Source of the DNA: Actinomycetota bacterium
GTDB taxonomy: Bacteria; Actinomycetota; Acidimicrobiia; Acidimicrobiales; Acidimicrobilacustridaceae
Reading direction: 5' to 3'
Assembly: GCA_009705225.1 (NCBI GenBank)
Contig: WLCQ01000009.1
Coordinates: forward strand, 1-33,678
DNA length: 33,678 nucleotides
Position numbers and translations under genes: made by a program. Under the pieces are notes generated by a model that was given only the letters and a program-made list of their open reading frames with translations, searched no databases and was not told where the DNA came from. Positions within the stretch are counted from its first letter, which is position 1. Each line of letters opens with the position of its first letter. This document shows positions 21,078 to 28,899 of the stretch, one piece after another.

Positions 21078-22970
21078 TCAGCGCAGAGAACGCAGGAATT
21101 CCTCGGCCTCGCTGCGAACCTTCGTGCGCGGCATGGGGGGAAGCGCATTGATGACGTCCCACCGATAACGCGCGTTCGTCGCCATTCGCGGATCGAATAC
21201 GGCGATGACGCCACGGTCGGTTGTGGTGCGAATGAGGCGCCCTGCTCCCTGTGCCAGCAGTGTGGTTGCTCTTGGGAGGTCCACCAATCGGAATGCGTCA
21301 GCGCGCGCCCGCTCGCGGCGTGCCTGCAGCAACGGGTCGTCTGGGCGGGGGAACGGCAATCGGTCGATTGTGACGAGGCTCAGCGTTGCTCCGGGCACAT
21401 CAACCCCCTGCCAGAACCCCATCGTGGCGAACAGGCAGGTTTCGGGCTCTGCGGTGAATCGTTCGATGAGTAACTGCTTCGGGAGTTCGTCCTGGGCGAG
21501 GATCGGAACCTCGAGTCGGTCCCGAAGCGCTTCGACTGCGGCGCTGAGCGCCCGATAGGACGTGAACAGCGCCATGGTGCGCCCACCGGCAGCTTCGATG
21601 AGCGCAGCCAACTCGTCGTGCATCGCCGGGTCGAAGGCTTCGCTGCGGGGGTCGGGCATATGGGCGGCGCAGTAGAGCAGTGACTGATTCGGATAATCGA
21701 ATGGACTTTCGACGGTGAGTCGTTCGAATGCATCGGGTTCGAGGCCGAGTTGATCGGGCAGCGCTGCGGGAAGAGTGGCACTGGTGAGCACAGCGGTTGC
21801 GGTCGGCCACATGACATCGGCGAGCAGGCCACCGACGTCGATCGGTGCGACGCGTAGAACGGGGTTTTCCTCGGTTCCCTCGATCCAAGCAACTTCACCG
21901 GAACGGACCTCGGAGATCCTGTCGATGTCGTCAATGAGCGAGGTGGTCGCCTTGATGGCGCGCAGTTTGCGCGCACCGACATCGCCGGTGCTGTCATCGG
22001 GTATGGCCCGGAGCGCGGCCATCGCCGGTTCGAGCCTGTTGCGAGCGAGGCTGAGCACACGGGCCGCGTCGCCATCGACAGCACCGCGCAGCCGACGCCC
22101 GCGTTCATCGGCGATGGCGGCTCGCCACTGGGATCCGAGATCGTCAATGCCGGTGACGATGGAGGGGTCGGCGAGGATCGAACCGATGGTGCGGGCCAGC
22201 GCAGTGAAGCGCCCGCCGGTGAGATCGACCCCAGAGGTGGCGGCGATGGTGTCCTCGAGTTGATGCGCCTCATCGATCACCACGATCTCGTGCTCGGGAA
22301 GAAGCGCCCCGCCGGTGGCGAGGTGCATCCCGTACAGATGGGTGTTCACGATGATGACGTCAGCTTCCATTGCGGCAGCCCGGGCTCGCTCGGCGAAGCA
22401 TTCATCGCCTTTCGGGCATCGGGTGGCGCCGGGGCATTCGCGAGGGCCAACGCTCACCGCAGCCCAGGCCCGATGTGACGGTTCGACGCTGAGTTCGGCG
22501 CGATCTCCGGTTTCTGTGCCGGCCGCCCAGCGAGCGATGGCTGCGATTTCCTCGGTGGGAGGTCGAGGACCGGTATCGAGATCGAGACGGTCTTCGCCGT
22601 CGTCGAGTTCATGGATCCGTTGCATGCAGACGTAATTCGAGCGGCCCTTGAGCACGGCGAACTCGATCGGCCGGTCGAGATGCTCGACCAGATGAGGCAG
22701 GTCCTTGTTGGCCAGCTGATCCTGGAGGGTCTTGGTGGCAGTAGCCACCACGGTGCGGCGGCCGGAGACGATCGCTGGAACGAGGTAGGCGAACGTCTTT
22801 CCCGTGCCGGTGCCCGCTTCGACGACGAGATGCCTCCCGTCGGAGATCGCCCTGGCGACGGCCTGTGCCATCTCGATCTGTCCGCTTCGCGCTTCACCCG
22901 TGGGGAGTGTCGCGGTGATCGCTTCGAGAGCGGCTGTTGTGTTTGCGACGAGCCGATCGGAGGATGCCAT
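21078..22970 (-). CDS. DinG/XPD-family iron-sulfur DNA helicase
   Basis: A 630-residue superfamily 2 helicase. Walker A is EAGTGTGKT (residues 51-59), the DEAH box begins at Asp233 (VIDEAHQLEDT), and four cysteines lie between them (SNYVC, RECPG, TRCPKGDEC), matching the [4Fe-4S] domain of DinG/XPD enzymes. C-terminal motifs include VLTSATLP, ALFTSYRAL, FATMGFWQGVDVPG and the arginine-finger region QGAGRLIRT. Such helicases unwind 5'-3' and resolve R-loops or damaged forks. ATG 22970 is chosen because the family N-terminus begins there and TACCAT lies 10 bases upstream; the long open frame beyond it is antisense to uppS. No SOS box is visible in its promoter, unlike E. coli dinG. Confidence 0.92.
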   Translation of the reverse strand: MASSDRLVANTTAALEAITATLPTGEARSGQIEMAQAVARAISDGRHLVVEAGTGTGKTFAYLVPAIVSGRRTVVATATKTLQDQLANKDLPHLVEHLDRPIEFAVLKGRSNYVCMQRIHELDDGEDRLDLDTGPRPPTEEIAAIARWAAGTETGDRAELSVEPSHRAWAAVSVGPRECPGATRCPKGDECFAERARAAAMEADVIIVNTHLYGMHLATGGALLPEHEIVVIDEAHQLEDTIAATSGVDLTGGRFTALARTIGSILADPSIVTGIDDLGSQWRAAIADERGRRLRGAVDGDAARVLSLARNRLEPAMAALRAIPDDSTGDVGARKLRAIKATTSLIDDIDRISEVRSGEVAWIEGTEENPVLRVAPIDVGGLLADVMWPTATAVLTSATLPAALPDQLGLEPDAFERLTVESPFDYPNQSLLYCAAHMPDPRSEAFDPAMHDELAALIEAAGGRTMALFTSYRALSAAVEALRDRLEVPILAQDELPKQLLIERFTAEPETCLFATMGFWQGVDVPGATLSLVTIDRLPFPRPDDPLLQARRERARADAFRLVDLPRATTLLAQGAGRLIRTTTDRGVIAVFDPRMATNARYRWDVINALPPMPRTKVRSEAEEFLRSLR

Positions 22971-23009
22971 GGGAAAGACGATGGTACCGGCGGTGTCCGA
23001 TGACGGCGG

Positions 23010-23015
23010 TAACCT
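23010..23015 (+). promoter_or_regulatory. -10 hexamer of uppS
   Basis: TAACCT lies exactly 6 bases before the GTG start of uppS, and no ribosome site precedes that GTG. This fits leaderless transcription. The helicase promoter is divergent in the same 51-bp gap. No clear -35 box is visible. Confidence 0.5.
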
Positions 23016-23021
23016 CAGCCG

Positions 23022-23744
23022 GTGGACGTCCCCGGCATTGATCCGACCAGAATCCCCGTGCATATCGCCGCGGTCATGGATGGGAACGGTCGTTGGGCAC
23101 AGCGGCGTGGCCTCAAGCGCACCGAGGGACATGCCGCTGGTGAGGAAGCGTTGATGGACGCGGTGGATGGGGCCCTTGATCTGGGTGCCAAGTGGCTCAC
23201 CGTCTACGCATTCTCCACGGAGAACTGGCGTCGACCTGTCGACGAAGTGCGCTATCTCATGGGTTTCAACGAGTCGCTGCTGATGCGCCGACGCGATGAA
23301 CTCAACGAGAAGGGCGTGCGCATCCGGTTCATCGGCCGTCGTGATTGGCGGGTCCCGAAACGACTGCTCCGGCGAATCGACGAGTCCGTCGAACTCACGC
23401 AGGGGAATCGCACGCTCACCCTCACGATCGCGTTCAATTACGGCGGCAAGGCCGAGCTCGTCGACGCCGTTCGTCAGATCGTGCGTGAGGGCATCCCGGC
23501 CGACAAGATCGACGAGAAGACCATCGCCAAGCGTCTGTACGCACCCGACATGCCTGACCCCGAACTCCTGGTGCGCACCTCCGGTGAGTACCGCCTGTCG
23601 AACTACCTCATGTGGGAGGCGGCCTACAGCGAGCTCGTCTTCACCGATGTCTTGTGGCCCGATTTCCGACGCGAGCACCTCTTCGATGCGGTTCGTGAGT
23701 ATCAGGCACGTGATCGTCGATTCGGCGGTCTGAGCGACGAATGA
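23022..23744 (+). CDS. uppS: Cis-prenyl transferase (undecaprenyl/decaprenyl diphosphate synthase)
   Basis: A 240-residue isoprenyl synthase making the polyprenyl carrier for cell-wall synthesis at the cytoplasmic membrane face. Seen: HIAAVMDGNGRWAQ with the catalytic Asp20, GHAAGEEAL, YAFSTENWRRP, FIGRRDWRVP, AFNYGGKAELVDA, and the C-terminal LLVRTSGEYRLSNYLMWEAAYSELVF with the usual substrate-binding Arg and Ser. The final product length (C50 or C55) cannot be read from the sequence. Start GTG 23022 is supported by TAACCT 6 bases upstream. recO follows after about 100 bp holding a tandem repeat. Confidence 0.95.
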   Translation: MDVPGIDPTRIPVHIAAVMDGNGRWAQRRGLKRTEGHAAGEEALMDAVDGALDLGAKWLTVYAFSTENWRRPVDEVRYLMGFNESLLMRRRDELNEKGVRIRFIGRRDWRVPKRLLRRIDESVELTQGNRTLTLTIAFNYGGKAELVDAVRQIVREGIPADKIDEKTIAKRLYAPDMPDPELLVRTSGEYRLSNYLMWEAAYSELVFTDVLWPDFRREHLFDAVREYQARDRRFGGLSDE

Positions 23745-23782: not shown

Positions 23783-23859
23783 GTCATGAGTAGGTCCGTC
23801 ATGAGAAGGTCCGTCGTGAGTGGGTTCGTCGTGAGTGGGTCGTCGTCATGAGTAAAGGA
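23783..23859 (+). repeat. 15-bp tandem repeat ending on the recO start codon
   Basis: Four consecutive 15-bp units fill 23783-23842 (GTCATGAGTAGGTCC, GTCATGAGAAGGTCC, GTCGTGAGTGGGTTC, GTCGTGAGTGGGTCG). After two extra bases a fifth unit, GTCATGAGTAAAGGA (23845-23859), contains the recO ATG. Each unit therefore carries an ATGAG or GTGAG start-like sequence. The array looks like repeated duplication of the translation start region of recO. Confidence 0.85.
23786..23851 (+). CDS. Possible 21-codon leader peptide upstream of recO
   Basis: The tandem repeat is open in one frame: ATG at 23786 begins a 21-codon reading frame of pentapeptide repeats (MSRSV, MRRSV, VSGFV, VSGSSS). Its TGA overlaps the recO ATG as ATGA. 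If translated, it would couple termination to recO initiation. There is no clear ribosome site before its ATG, and the frame may simply reflect the repeat. I regard it as a candidate only. Confidence 0.3.
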   Translation: MSRSVMRRSVVSGFVVSGSSS

Positions 23860-24588
23860 ACGATCCATCGCGACGAAGGCATCGTGCTGCGCACTTACAA
23901 GTTGGGTGAGGCCGATCGCATCATCGTGTTCCTCACCCGCCGTCGGGGCAAAGTGCGAGCCGTGGCGAAAGGGGTCCGCAAAACCCGATCTAAGTTCGGG
24001 TCACGGCTCGAACCGATGAGTCATGTTGCCTTGCAGCTCTACGAGGGACGTGAGCTCGACCTGGTGACTCAGGTGGACAGCATCGATCATTTCCGGGGGT
24101 TGCGTGATGACCTGGATCAGATCGCGCGGGCTTCGGCGATGCTCGAGACCGCCGACCAACTCGCGCAGGAAGGGGCGGCGAACCCCCGGCTCTACGAGAT
24201 GCTGCTCGGAGCGTTGCGCACTCTCGACCTCTCGCATTCGCCGCTCGTGGTGCCGGCGTTCTTCTGGAAGGTGCTGGCTCTCGAGGGGTACCGACCTGAA
24301 GTCGATCATTGTGTGATGTGCGGTGAGGGCGGACCGACCGACGCATTGGTGGCACTCGTGGCGTTCGATCTCGAGAGCGGTGGGCTCCTGTGTCACGGCT
24401 GCCGTCGCGGAACAGCGGTATCGGCCGAAGCTGTGGAGTTGCTGCAGCAGATCTTGGGTGGACGACTCAACGAAGCGCTTTCTGCTCCACCATCGCCGGC
24501 GAGTCGTGAGGTCGATCATCTCGCCACCCGGGCCGTCGAACATCACCTCGAACGACGCCTCCGATCGGTCACGGTGCTTGATCGCTGA
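23848..24588 (+). CDS. recO: DNA repair protein RecO
   Basis: A 246-residue RecO, the mediator that loads RecA onto SSB-coated single strands in the RecFOR pathway. The N-terminal OB fold is clear (DEGIVLRTYKLGEADRIIVFLTRRRGKVRAVAKGVRK, then YEGRELDLVTQVD), followed by the helical domain and a zinc-finger pair CVMC (Cys155, Cys158) and CHGC (Cys182, Cys185). ATG 23848 gives the canonical short N-terminus. The region upstream is a 15-bp tandem repeat. uppS and recO are often neighbours in actinobacteria. Confidence 0.95.
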   Translation: MSKGTIHRDEGIVLRTYKLGEADRIIVFLTRRRGKVRAVAKGVRKTRSKFGSRLEPMSHVALQLYEGRELDLVTQVDSIDHFRGLRDDLDQIARASAMLETADQLAQEGAANPRLYEMLLGALRTLDLSHSPLVVPAFFWKVLALEGYRPEVDHCVMCGEGGPTDALVALVAFDLESGGLLCHGCRRGTAVSAEAVELLQQILGGRLNEALSAPPSPASREVDHLATRAVEHHLERRLRSVTVLDR

Positions 24589-24638: not shown

Positions 24639-24667
24639 TTGCATATCGAACAGGTGTTCGATAGAAT
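24639..24667 (+). promoter_or_regulatory. SOS-type promoter with a perfect LexA box
   Basis: A perfect palindrome TATCGAACA-GG-TGTTCGATA spans 24644-24663. Its core CGAACAGGTGTTCG (24647-24660) matches at every position the Gram-positive/mycobacterial SOS box CGAACRNRYGTTCG. It fills the 17-bp spacer between a TTGCAT -35 (24639-24644) and a TAGAAT -10 (24662-24667), so bound LexA would block RNA polymerase. TAGAAT ends 6 bases before the ATG of the HNH gene, giving a leaderless, DNA-damage-inducible message. The match is seen; LexA binding is inferred. Confidence 0.85.
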
Positions 24668-24673
24668 CAGGAC

Positions 24674-26314
24674 ATGGATCGCTATCGATTCACCGCCGAC
24701 AACTCGCAGTTCTCCAAGCTTGCCGAGGCAATCGCTGAGGTCGTGATCCCGGTCGATGGCGCTTGTCTGGTTGAGGCACGGGCGCTGCTCGATGCACTTG
24801 CCGCTCGCGTCGCCCGTGCCGAAGCTGAATTCGCGGCGGCAGGGCTTCCCGAACTGGATGGCACCGGCTCGATAGCTGCATGGCTTCGCCATCATGTCGG
24901 CCTCACCGAACCCGAGTCACGGCGGGCGGGTCTGCGGGCCGAGCGGCTCGCCGCATGGCGGGGTTTCGCCGATGCATGGGAGCACGGTGTGCTCACCGGC
25001 GCACAGGTCGATCTCGCCGTGGCACTCATCCCCACACACCACGTCGATCGCTTTTCGCGCACTGATGCCGATACCGCCCGAGCGTTGCGGCAACTCAACC
25101 CGCAGCAGACCCGCATCGTTCTGCGGCATTGGGTGCAGCGGGCTGATGCGGCTGCCGATGTCGAAGCGGCGATACTGGCGGCCGAGTCAGGTGCCGGCGA
25201 GGCAGAGCCCGCTCCACCAGATCGCTCGCTGTTCTGTTCTCGTACTCTCGATGACGTCGCGATCATCGATGGTCGTCTGCATCCTGATGGCGCCGCTGTC
25301 GTCGAGGCAGCGCTGCGGGTGGCTGAACGCCCCGACGAACCCGAAGAGTCACGCTCCGCGGCTGCTCGGCGCGCCGACGCGCTCATCTCCATCTGCGGCT
25401 TCTACCTCGACAATCACGCCGGGGTCGACGAACTGGGCCGCCAGCGACCCCATCTCACCGTGGTGGTCGACCTACCCCAACTCTTCGCCTCCACTCTGCG
25501 ATCGTCGGGCGTTCGATCCGATGCCGACCTCGAACGTTTCCTGCGCACGCATCGGGTCGCTCCCGGCGATCGAGCTCAGTTCATCGAAGCGTTCGCCCGT
25601 TTGTTCTCCGGCCCCGGGTTCTCCGGCACCGGGTTCTCCGGCCCATCGCGTGCAGGTGTGGGTACTGGCACCGAAGCTTCAGACTCAAGATTGCCCGGAG
25701 TTCCGATGGCGAACGGTTCGTTCTCCGGAGCTCCGATGCTCAATGGTGGACGCACCCTCGACGGTCGGCCCATCAGTGCACTCGCGCTTTCGGCGCTCAC
25801 CTGCGACAGCATCCTCGAGCGTCTCCTCGTGGCCGATCAACGGGTCATCGATCACGGTCGTTCCGTGCGGGAGTTCTCCTCCTCGCAGCGACGGGCCGTA
25901 TTCGCTCGCGACATGGGCTGTCGGTTTCCCGGCTGTTCGCTCGGTCCGCGTCACTGTCAGGTTCATCACATCGAGCCATGGCAGACCGGTGGGCGAACCG
26001 ATCTCAGCAATGCCGTCGCCTTGTGCTCGTTCCATCATCACGCGGTGCACCGACCGCAATGGCGGGCTTCGCTCGGCTCCCGTGGCGAGTTCATCGTCCA
26101 CCGGGCCGATGGTTCAACGCTCCAAGGCCGTGGATTCAGCGGCTCGCCAATGTTGGCTCCGGTCGCATCCGCGCTGCCCGTCCAACTGATTTCCGCCATA
26201 CGCGAGAACATCGATGAACCGACGGAAGATGCCGACGTCGAGTCCTGGTCCGAGATTGACGAACTCGTTCGACTCGCCCGAGAGCGCGCCCACGGACTCG
26301 TGACAGCGGCCTGA
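24674..26314 (+). CDS. DUF222 / 13E12-type HNH endonuclease, probably SOS-induced
   Basis: A 546-residue protein with an N-terminal DUF222 (13E12 repeat family) domain of about 300 residues: LLDALAARVARAEAEF, then SIAAWLRHHVGLTEPESRRAGLRAERL and VLTGAQVDLAVALIP. A Gly/Ser/Pro linker contains three FSG-P/T-G repeats (residues 311-325). The C-terminal HNH nuclease starts at Cys416 (CRFPGC), followed by CQVHHIEPWQTGGRTDLSNAVALCSFHHHAVH, with the two zinc Cys pairs and the HH...N...H catalytic set intact. The biological role of this abundant actinobacterial family is unknown. The SOS box in the promoter links it to DNA damage. Neighbouring recO is also a repair gene but has no such box. Confidence 0.92.
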   Translation: MDRYRFTADNSQFSKLAEAIAEVVIPVDGACLVEARALLDALAARVARAEAEFAAAGLPELDGTGSIAAWLRHHVGLTEPESRRAGLRAERLAAWRGFADAWEHGVLTGAQVDLAVALIPTHHVDRFSRTDADTARALRQLNPQQTRIVLRHWVQRADAAADVEAAILAAESGAGEAEPAPPDRSLFCSRTLDDVAIIDGRLHPDGAAVVEAALRVAERPDEPEESRSAAARRADALISICGFYLDNHAGVDELGRQRPHLTVVVDLPQLFASTLRSSGVRSDADLERFLRTHRVAPGDRAQFIEAFARLFSGPGFSGTGFSGPSRAGVGTGTEASDSRLPGVPMANGSFSGAPMLNGGRTLDGRPISALALSALTCDSILERLLVADQRVIDHGRSVREFSSSQRRAVFARDMGCRFPGCSLGPRHCQVHHIEPWQTGGRTDLSNAVALCSFHHHAVHRPQWRASLGSRGEFIVHRADGSTLQGRGFSGSPMLAPVASALPVQLISAIRENIDEPTEDADVESWSEIDELVRLARERAHGLVTAA

Positions 26315-26358: not shown

Positions 26359-26390
26359 ATCACTGCTTGATCACTGCTTGATCACTGCTT
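26358..26390 (+). repeat. Three 11-bp direct repeats
   Basis: GATCACTGCTT occurs three times head to tail (26358-26368, 26369-26379, 26380-26390) without mismatch, starting at the last base of the preceding hairpin. Each junction makes a GATC or TGATCA motif, and GATC follows the last copy. The rest of the gap to 26490 contains a weak TACCGT hexamer (26455-26460) and the ribosome site of the next gene. Confidence 0.85.
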
Positions 26391-26490
26391 GATCTCGCGA
26401 TCACGGCCGGAGCGACGTCAGGCGGCAGCCGGTTTCTGGTCGCCTGTTGGCTGGTACCGTCAGGCGGTTGAACGTTCCAGAGGGGGAAAT

Positions 26491-28899
26491 ATGACTGCAT
26501 CGAGAGCACTGCCGCTCGAGGGGATTCGAGTACTCGATCTCACCGTTGAGAACGGGGAGCTGGCGTCGCGGCTGCTGGCCGATCTTGGGGCCGATGTCAT
26601 CAAGGTCGAACCACCGTCGGGTTCGCCGGCCCGGTCGTTGGCGCCAGTGCGCAAGGGCGTCTCGCTGTCATGGGCGGTGAACAACGCCGGAAAGCGCAGC
26701 GTTGTGCTCGATCTCCAGCAGGAGGCCGAGGTCGGGCGTCTGCTCGAACTCGTGCGCCATGCCGATGTCATCGTGTGCCCGTCGGGTGTTGTGGCACCGG
26801 GCCTCACAGTGCACGACCTCGCCGCCGGGAATCCTCATCTGATCGTCGCCGCACTCACCCCCTATGGCCTCACCGGTCCTTGGTCCGACTGGCAGCTCAC
26901 CGATCAGGTGCTCTCCGCAACCGGGGGCATGACCTTCAAGGCCGGCACCCTTGCTCGTGAACCCATTCCGGCGCCCGGACAGTTCAGCAACGATGTCGCG
27001 GCATCAAGCGCAGCATGGGCGATGCTGTGTGCGCTCTGGCAGCGTCAGCACACCGGCGCCGGCCAACTCCTCGACATCTCGATCAATGAATGTCTCGCCC
27101 AGACCGCCGATTGGTCGCTGCCCAACTATACGGCTCGTGTTGCTGCCGGCTCCACCTTCCCCGAACTGCGCATGGGTTCCGGTCCCGTGTACCCGATCTT
27201 CAAATGCCGCGACGGCTATGTGCGTCTTATCGTGCTGAGCCCGGCCCAGTGGCGCGAGATGCGCGCCTGGTTGGGCGAGCCCGAGTACCTCCAGGACGAG
27301 GAGTACGACTCCTTCCCGGGGCGCTTCGCCATCGCAGAGGCCATTCTCAATCCGCTCTATGAGGAACTGTTCGCCGATCTCACCATCGAGGAGGTCTCGG
27401 CCCACGCACAGGATCGCGGCATCGTATGCACGCCGGTGTACGACGCCCCGCGCGCTCTCAAGAACGAGCACTTCGATTCCCGTGGAACGTTCCAGTCCAT
27501 GGAGATCGCTCCAGGTGTTGTTGCCCAGATGCCCTCCGGCTTCTTCGAACTCGATGGCGAGCGGGTCGGTCCGCAGAGTCCGCCGCCGGCGATCGGGGAG
27601 CACACCGCCGAGGTCTTTGCTTCGTTGGGCGACCAGCGCGTTGGCACCTCCGCTCCCGCCCCGAGTCTTCCGCTGGTCGGCCTTCGGGTGATGGACTTTG
27701 GTCAGGGAGCGGTTGGTGTCGAGGCCGGAAAACTCTTCGCTGAGTACGGCGCCGAGGTCATCAAAATCGAAAGCCGCTCGCATTACGACTTCATCCGGGT
27801 CGTCACCGGTACCGAGATGGGTCCGTCGTTCGCCTCGTCGAGTCGGTCGAAGAAGGCAATGGGCGTCAACGCCAAGTTCGCCGAGGGCCGTCAGGTGCTT
27901 CTTGACCTCGTCAAGCACTCCGATGTCGTCATCGAGAACACCACCACTGGTGCGATGGCCGCACTCGGCATCGGTTACGAGGACCTCTCCGCGGCCAATC
28001 CGCGCATCGCCATGGTGGCGAGCCAACTCATGGGCTCCCGGGGCGTGTGGGCGCATTGGCGCGGGTACGGCCCCAGCACCCAGGCCCCCGGCGGGCTGTC
28101 GTATCTCTGGAGCTACGAAGGCAGCACCGAACCGGCCGGCACCGCCTCGATCTTCCCGGACCACTTCGTGGGTCGACTCTCGGCCTGTGGCGCACTCGCC
28201 ACGCTCATCGGCCGCGAGCGCGGAACCCTCGAGGGCGGCCTCATCGAGCTCGCCCAGTGCGAAGCCGTTGTCGGCTCCATCGCCGATCTGCTCGCCGCCG
28301 AGTCGATCGAGCCGGGTTCGGTGCTCCCCATGGGTGTGCATTCCGAGCGCGGCACCCCGGGTGCGAACTACCGCTGTGCCCCCGATGCCGACAGTGGTGC
28401 CGGTGCTGAGGAATGGGTCGCGATCACCTGTCGCAATGATGCGGAATGGCAGGCGCTGGCAGAGCTGATGGGTCACGCAGAACTCGGCAGCGATCCGCGG
28501 TTCACCACCCTTGAATCTCGGAGGGCCAACGTGGCCGAACTCGATGCGCTCATCGGAGCATGGACCATCGAACACAACCGCTTCGACGTTGCCGATCGTT
28601 GTCAGGCGGCGGGAATTCCTGCTGGCCCGATGGTCACCTCGCTCGACATGATGAACCATCCGCATTTCGTCGAGCGCGGATTCCCCGTGCATATCGAGCA
28701 ACCCGGTGTTGTCGGCCCCGTCATCTTCGAGGGCCCGGCATTCCATGCGACAGGGATGACTGATCCGTTTGAGGGGCCAGCACCATGGCTGGGGGAGCAC
28801 ACCATTGCCATCGCCACCGAGGTTCTCGGCATGAGCGCTGATGAGGTCGATGAACTCATTGCGAAGGGCGTTCTGGAGATCACCCCACCGCAGGGTTGA
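26491..28899 (+). CDS. Double-domain family III CoA-transferase (CaiB/BaiF)
   Basis: An 802-residue protein made of two CoA-transferase III domains in tandem, each about 400 residues. Each starts the same way: PLEGIRVLDLTVENGELASRLLADLGADVIKVEPP and PLVGLRVMDFGQGAVGVEAGKLFAEYGAEVIKIESR. Family enzymes move CoA between carboxylic acids through an aspartyl-CoA intermediate. The first half keeps Asp195 in QLLDISINE; at the matching place the second half has Glu586 in GLIELAQCE. The halves may thus be catalytically unequal. ATG 26491 has AGGGGG (26481-26486) upstream; TACCGT at 26455-26460 would give a leader of about 24 bases. Substrate unknown; degradation of fatty, bile or aromatic acids is typical. 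It stands alone. Confidence 0.9.
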   Translation: MTASRALPLEGIRVLDLTVENGELASRLLADLGADVIKVEPPSGSPARSLAPVRKGVSLSWAVNNAGKRSVVLDLQQEAEVGRLLELVRHADVIVCPSGVVAPGLTVHDLAAGNPHLIVAALTPYGLTGPWSDWQLTDQVLSATGGMTFKAGTLAREPIPAPGQFSNDVAASSAAWAMLCALWQRQHTGAGQLLDISINECLAQTADWSLPNYTARVAAGSTFPELRMGSGPVYPIFKCRDGYVRLIVLSPAQWREMRAWLGEPEYLQDEEYDSFPGRFAIAEAILNPLYEELFADLTIEEVSAHAQDRGIVCTPVYDAPRALKNEHFDSRGTFQSMEIAPGVVAQMPSGFFELDGERVGPQSPPPAIGEHTAEVFASLGDQRVGTSAPAPSLPLVGLRVMDFGQGAVGVEAGKLFAEYGAEVIKIESRSHYDFIRVVTGTEMGPSFASSSRSKKAMGVNAKFAEGRQVLLDLVKHSDVVIENTTTGAMAALGIGYEDLSAANPRIAMVASQLMGSRGVWAHWRGYGPSTQAPGGLSYLWSYEGSTEPAGTASIFPDHFVGRLSACGALATLIGRERGTLEGGLIELAQCEAVVGSIADLLAAESIEPGSVLPMGVHSERGTPGANYRCAPDADSGAGAEEWVAITCRNDAEWQALAELMGHAELGSDPRFTTLESRRANVAELDALIGAWTIEHNRFDVADRCQAAGIPAGPMVTSLDMMNHPHFVERGFPVHIEQPGVVGPVIFEGPAFHATGMTDPFEGPAPWLGEHTIAIATEVLGMSADEVDELIAKGVLEITPPQG

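Follow-up and report, generated by a model that had tools for sequence, protein, structure and literature searches.

How the gene for an HNH endonuclease beside recO is controlled in a member of the Acidimicrobiia, and what the encoded nuclease does, are the questions raised by this locus, which lies in a window of 33,678 bases (the whole stretch of DNA that was analysed). LexA control of such genes has a precedent in Mycobacterium tuberculosis, as the initial annotation of this DNA had stated and as is now found in print in the available text of three papers (PMC5005354, PMC8151990, PMC4181829): the 13E12 genes Rv0515, Rv1702c, Rv3074 and Rv3776 are reported to be under LexA (PMC5005354), and mitomycin C is reported to switch on five HNH genes in a RecA-dependent manner (PMC8151990). 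The comparisons described here indicate that the promoter of the HNH gene is, with high confidence, LexA-repressed and induced by DNA damage. Judged from the sequences of its relatives, DNA damage very probably switches on the DUF222-HNH family in lineages far outside the mycobacteria. The role of the enzyme is the least certain part of the analysis: an induced HNH nuclease would fit with repair, with self-copying or with cell death.

A predicted operator in the promoter spacer

The predicted operator lies within the promoter of the HNH gene (Table 1). The two promoter hexamers are 17 bp apart and the start codon is preceded by CAGGAC; the mRNA of this gene is probably leaderless. Re-reading of the positions agrees with the initial annotation that the box fills the spacer between TTGCAT and TAGAAT, that the ATG follows six bases past the -10 element and that the core fits the consensus CGAACN4GTTCG at every position. 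Its description as a perfect 20-bp palindrome holds for the 9-bp arms, which are fully complementary, but not for the central GG, which is non-palindromic (18 of 20 positions symmetric).

Table 1. Features of the HNH locus and its neighbours, in window coordinates.
Feature	Position	Strand	Basis or remark
DinG/YoaA-type helicase	21078..23678	-	profile matches; same order in L034
recO, upstream neighbour of the HNH gene, same strand	23848..24588	+	TIGR00613, 145 bits
-35-like hexamer TTGCAT	24639..24644	+	read in the sequence
Predicted LexA (SOS) operator TATCGAACAGGTGTTCGATA	24644..24663	.	core CGAACAGGTGTTCG at 24647-24660
-10 element TAGAAT	24662..24667	+	read in the sequence; 2-bp overlap with the extended operator
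DUF222-type HNH endonuclease gene (product of 546 aa), probably leaderless	24674..26314	+	ORF, profile matches
HNH/zinc motif, residues 416-460 (C416, C421, H431, H432, C451, H455)	25919..26053	+	Pfam HNH
CoA-transferase family III gene, downstream neighbour	26389..28899	+	same order in L034

It is very improbable that the operator is a chance palindrome or the site of another regulator. Words resembling CGAAC/GTTCG are indeed frequent in the window at two mismatches (64 matches of the bare pattern against 28 expected), so that only exact or extended matches are informative. In these forms the motif is infrequent: the exact pattern has one match in the entire window against 0.06 expected, and is present in six of 100 shuffled sequences, whereas the 20-bp form, with up to three mismatches allowed, matches the window only at the operator and none of 100 shuffles. 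On these exact and 20-bp counts, a chance match was rejected as the origin of the box. The placement of the site, its conservation as a footprint, the boxed paralogues and an identical box ahead of an imuA′-like ORF, each described below, argue against both alternatives.

The encoded nuclease

The HNH protein scores 26.6 bits with the Pfam HNH profile (PF01844; cut-off 21.4), and the cysteine and histidine residues of the motif listed in Table 1 are invariant among 53 aligned relatives. By itself it falls below the Pfam DUF222 (PF02720) cut-off, which is exceeded by homologues in its own genome that align with it over their full length at 37–41% identity. The label DUF222-HNH given in the initial annotation is borne out for the HNH part, and for DUF222 it is suggested by these homologues. 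In a comparison with solved structures, all matches below E 0.04 lay in the HNH part of the protein; they were restriction enzyme A, IscB, Cas8f-HNH and a maturase. A mismatch-repair role has been proposed for M. tuberculosis genes in the available part of one report (PMC4181829). No MutS family, as would be expected of the MutS-like mismatch repair component of that proposal, was present among the Pfam or NCBIfam matches of the window HNH protein. Membership of a defence system was rejected, as PADLOC gave a weak score on the window HNH region (17 bits) and nil for two paralogues.

LexA and other SOS sites in the same genome

LexA, whose absence would have refuted the reading according to the initial annotation, is encoded: the genome contains a single LexA match (C195:507-1124; 224 bits against a cut-off of 111), which aligns over its full length with solved LexA. 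Two boxes lie ahead of lexA itself (C195:342 and C195:378). The recA gene, recognised by eye, shares the lexA contig and has a box approximately 190 bases upstream. Furthermore, the 20-mer of the window recurs identically ahead of an imuA′-like ORF, which was named by place and sequence without a Pfam hit and is followed by a Y-family polymerase ORF identified by its Pfam IMS domain. Across the genome there are 22 exact sites, compared with one for the reversed pattern. Classified by position, with no annotation used, 11 of these are promoter-like, 10 are inside long ORFs and one is ambiguous; the promoter-like sites include two at lexA, one at recA, one at the imuA′-like ORF and six at HNH genes. 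The consensus CGAACN4GTTCG is common to the window site and to the actinobacterial and Gram-positive SOS boxes of lexA, recA and imuA′-imuB; unlike those boxes, that of the window stands before a nuclease gene.

A further exact box (C214:5573-5586; L025:4574-4587) was observed at the 5′ end of an ORF combining an RNase_T exonuclease with GIY-YIG, which on this basis is possibly another SOS target.

Conservation of the box in orthologous regions

The nearest named relative, at locus L034 of a Microthrixaceae metagenome-assembled genome, keeps the gene order dinG-recO-HNH-CoA-transferase-glyS. This relative places the window within the Microthrixaceae (Acidimicrobiia) or close to them. Its HNH protein is 69% identical to that of the window, compared with 92% for recO, 87% for dinG and 89% for the CoA-transferase. 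Similarly, genome G134, which is given as belonging to the same genus as the window, keeps recO-HNH, at 74% identity for recO and 50% for the HNH protein, and the recO-HNH pair is retained at both L034 and L144. Between the window and L034, the HNH gene has a dN of 0.21, a dS of 0.97 and a dN/dS of 0.22. The window HNH gene is positionally stable and is evolving faster than its neighbours.

In the stretch from recO to the ATG, the window and its orthologous regions at L034 and L144 have diverged everywhere but in ATCGAACAGGTGTTCG, most of the -10 element and the start. The box that was expected ahead of orthologues is present at L034 and L144 with this 16-bp core unchanged. The -10 element reads TAGAAT in L034 and TAGATT in L144, and the ATG stands six bases past it in all three regions. 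The counterpart of the -35 hexamer is TTGTTC in L034 and is weaker in L144.

Paralogues with the start codon inside the box

Profile A3 located seven family places in the genome of the window, two of which are fragments at contig ends. All six profile-found family starts, including that of the window, are boxed, with one mismatch at C46. On contigs C19, C32, C81, C117 and C185 the box (CGAACACATGTTCGA) contains an ATG in the reading frame of the family ORF, and a -10-like TANNNT abuts the box upstream; C46 shows this whole arrangement, with its one mismatch in the box. The start-in-box proteins begin MFE or MFD, which would be explained if the start codon is part of the repressor site. C185, a seventh start, is a contig-end fragment recognised by its box and its likeness to C117, and is therefore not independent evidence. 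The start of the copy on C36 is unseen because only a C-terminal fragment is present. The refined M. tuberculosis LexA motif, given as MKWMTCGAAMRYWTGTTCGA in the available text of PMC4181829, appears on our own reading to have WTG at the start-codon position of the start-in-box type.

A word TGTC(A/C)CACC was observed approximately 29 bases before start-in-box ATGs at L026, L031 and L021 (C81, C117 and C185), L198 and L214-L242. It stands 10–11 bases ahead of the -10, where a sigma-70 element is unexpected, and occurs in two genome families.

Frequency and geometry of the box across relatives

Named relatives were represented by 80 loci, of which the 72 with a closed 5′ end were counted. An exact box was present at 19 of these 72 and a box with at most one mismatch at 37, against 3 and 91, respectively, of 1446 control stretches (650-base stretches from the named loci, half overlapping). 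At class level the corresponding counts were 25/64 and 41/64, for loci that were hand-picked from the listed best matches and are thus non-random, beside the same 1446 controls drawn from the named loci only. When both sets were pooled and two duplicated genes removed, 77 of 134 family starts carried a box at up to one mismatch and 57 did not. Fifteen of the boxless starts belong to ORFs of fewer than 350 aa in the available stretch, including four of the 14 from Cryobacterium, so their true start may lie elsewhere.

The start codon lies in the box at 27 of the 134 starts, the box occupies the spacer at 21, with a further six less certain, and it follows the -10 element at 15; eight are arranged otherwise. 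Where the box is present, its geometry tends to follow lineage: the start codon is in the box in Microthrixaceae and one Pseudonocardia strain, the arrangement is spacer-like in two Amycolatopsis strains, and the box follows the -10 element in Cellulomonas and Actinotalea. Boxed members of the family are found among the Acidimicrobiia, Cellulomonas and its relatives, Pseudonocardia and Amycolatopsis. In contrast, none of 14 Cryobacterium starts is boxed at up to one mismatch; a shifted operator may be in use in Cryobacterium, Arthrobacter and Galactobacter. Exact sites in two Cryobacterium genomes number 17 and 15, compared with 4 and 2 for the reversed pattern.

The proposal in the initial annotation of a conserved module beyond mycobacteria therefore needs qualification. 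Boxes ahead of the orthologues and of many other members support it, but with 57 of 134 starts boxless and Cryobacterium without any boxed start, LexA control is not a fixed property of the family. Likewise, the spacer arrangement of the window recurs, but alongside other geometries, at least three in all, rather than as one conserved promoter module. That the box is kept at many members while its geometry varies suggests that selection preserves damage induction.

Of the 148 genomes of the class, 101 have a family match to profile A2 and 143 have a LexA match. The genomes with no LexA match (G006, G051, G103, G122 and G130) all have family matches, and missing contigs may explain these five cases. 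Two family relatives lie in records named Acidobacteriota (L071 and L093; Vicinamibacteraceae and Luteitalea), with no box at up to two mismatches in the scanned region. Two further records, L041 and L046, are titled Bifidobacterium breve and contain genes of the Acidimicrobiia family; these titles are probably wrong.

The reverse approach started from the motif TCGAACRYATGTTCGA, which is present in 98 of 396 Actinomycetota genomes; its reversed control had one match (G302) among the matches listed. At 30 loci taken from 30 of the 98 genomes, the in-motif ATG opened a family ORF in eight, and two further loci were dnaE2-like by eye. With a family ORF at just eight of 30 loci, the motif alone is no marker of the family.

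A model for damage-induced expression

It is proposed that, in an undamaged cell, a LexA dimer would occupy positions 24644-24663, over the spacer and the beginning of the -10 element, and would keep the promoter closed to RNA polymerase while bound. Upon damage, RecA on single-stranded DNA would trigger self-cleavage of LexA. Transcription beginning at the ATG at 24674, or immediately ahead of it, would then give a leaderless mRNA for the DUF222-HNH nuclease. The same logic would hold for the paralogues, where LexA on a start-in-box operator would cover the transcription start and the start codon together. The site, LexA, the boxes near lexA, recA and imuA′-imuB, their conservation and an intact nuclease motif under purifying selection are observed; LexA binding, induction and the leaderless start are inferred from these.

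Expansion of the family in one genome

The family is expanded in another genome of the class, G003 (Acidimicrobiia; one contig of 2,461,858 bases), which contains 30 exact TCGAACATATGTTCGA sites (L198 and L214-L242). All 30 begin family genes, 29 as identified by profile and the remaining one, L236 (34 aa), by the N-terminal residues of its product. Of these copies, 28 are full length, and every full-length protein retains the HNH catalytic residues. Median dN/dS by region among the 28 proteins is 0.08–0.17, calculated from those pairs, 42–97 out of 378, whose dS fell in the range from 0.05 to 1; in the genus of G003, 13 copy pairs gave 0.09–0.32. By eye, the copies are alike from TGTC(A/C)CACC at about -29 to the stop codon and dissimilar beyond. 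Thirty dispersed, boxed DUF222-HNH genes represent a large share of this small 2.46-Mb genome.

Three incomplete genomes of congeners contain 17, 13 and 0 exact sites. Of the 29 sites examined out of 30, a family ORF recognised by profile begins at 27, and the short ORFs at L259 and L269 have family-like first residues. Twenty-five copies in two congeners have a counterpart at the same position in G003; this counterpart is the closest protein for 11 of them, and 14 are closest to a different paralogue. Among these 14, L249, L257 and L262 are uninformative because the G003 counterpart is truncated, leaving 11 against 11. In several positional pairs, identity drops over the N-terminal part of the coding sequence but is high towards the 3′ end and in the flanks, whereas other pairs, such as L229/L271, are similar throughout. 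This swapping of paralogues shows recombination between copies, whether enzyme-driven or not.

At L223/L245/L248 and at L238/L246, congeneric species carry different paralogues at conserved chromosomal positions, and the difference is limited to the gene and the sequence just upstream of it. At L302 (contig C165 of genome G507), other sequence with no family match lies at the position of one G003 copy, and no family protein was found in 20 G507 contigs (152 kb of approximately 2.1 Mb). No clean empty site was found in 13 kb around one G003 copy compared with three congeners. Terminal inverted repeats of the G003 units were considered and rejected, as TGTC(A/C)CACC was not found inverted near their 3′ ends.

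Possible roles of the nuclease

Of the roles considered, the likeliest, though still at less than even odds, is that the enzyme cuts or nicks DNA in recombinational repair; conversion among the copies of its own gene would then follow. An alternative, which is unlikely, is that the unit of operator and ORF (approximately 1.25 kb) spreads itself under SOS control and behaves like a homing element. In this reading, the induced nuclease would cut related slots or alleles, and RecA repair would copy a paralogue in. The sharp limits of similarity among the 30 G003 copies, the 14 of 25 positioned congener copies closest to another paralogue, the local drop in identity within genes and the family-free G507 slot are consistent with such spreading, as are REP13E12 elements, which are described as gene-conversion hot spots in M. 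tuberculosis in the available text of a preprint (PMC13061034). However, three of those 14 copies are uninformative, and RecA-dependent gene conversion of the usual kind, acting between repeats, accounts for the swapping with no need for the enzyme to cut. The search for a clean empty site, which failed, and the persistence of the window gene beside recO in three genomes also argue against spreading, and the intact motifs and low dN/dS of the 28 full-length G003 proteins suit a cell function at least as well. Relatives are, moreover, few on plasmids and phages: at E 1e-5 the C81 protein matched 5 records among 72,556 from plasmids and 2 among 50,697 from phages, a search in which remoter relatives could be missed, and profile A2 found no relative in viral_contigs. 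With so few matches, carriage as phage or plasmid cargo is likewise unsupported.

A low probability is also assigned to damage-induced suicide or self-restriction, whereby the nuclease would fragment the chromosome of badly damaged cells. In the available text of one study, the HNH nuclease MSMEG_1275 of M. smegmatis cuts DNA and inhibits growth when over-expressed (PMC9416677), but four of five over-expressed HNH genes caused no great growth inhibition. Moreover, the harmful MSMEG_1275 is tied there to an ArsR regulator, and it is likened here as an HNH nuclease rather than assigned to the DUF222-HNH family. A suicide enzyme would weigh heavily on a genome with 28 intact copies of its gene, and the window gene is flanked by recO and the CoA-transferase gene, with no evident immunity gene. 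A chromosomal role in the damage response is favoured by the 28 intact copies under purifying selection, by the fixed position of the window gene next to recO and by the rarity of relatives on phages and plasmids.

Relation to known systems and significance

The M. tuberculosis 13E12 genes are likewise multi-copy and under LexA, with gene conversion of REP13E12, according to the available text of PMC5005354 and PMC13061034. The present case differs from theirs in extending to Acidimicrobiia and other actinobacteria, and in the position of the window operator within the promoter spacer. HNH homing endonucleases share with the DUF222-HNH units the HNH motif, dispersed copies and the exchange of paralogues at fixed positions; unlike them, these units have no intron or intein host, defined target or clean empty site that was seen. 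The leaderless lexA of M. tuberculosis is described as an SOS gene with its start codon at the transcription start (PMC2897130, available text), whereas genes of the start-in-box type have their start codon within the operator itself.

Thus, LexA control of 13E12/HNH genes is known from M. tuberculosis, while its breadth, including LexA regulation of DUF222-HNH genes in Acidimicrobiia, and the start-in-operator geometry were not reported in the literature searched, as far as the available text of the sources extends; papers defining the M. tuberculosis regulon may describe such starts. Davis 2002 and Smollett 2012 reportedly define this regulon. The word HNH is absent from the main text of a paper on LexA of Streptomyces venezuelae (PMC9380542).

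A start codon within an operator ties the first residues, MFE or MFD, to the repressor site and could help to mend annotated starts. If self-copying were true, the operator with its start codon and the ORF would move or convert together, as a single cassette, among fixed positions on the chromosome, and damage would drive diversification of the nuclease repertoire. The family is widespread, and the function of an SOS-induced HNH nuclease can be put to the test outside mycobacteria; G003, in which every one of the 30 exact sites opens a family gene, is a natural test case.
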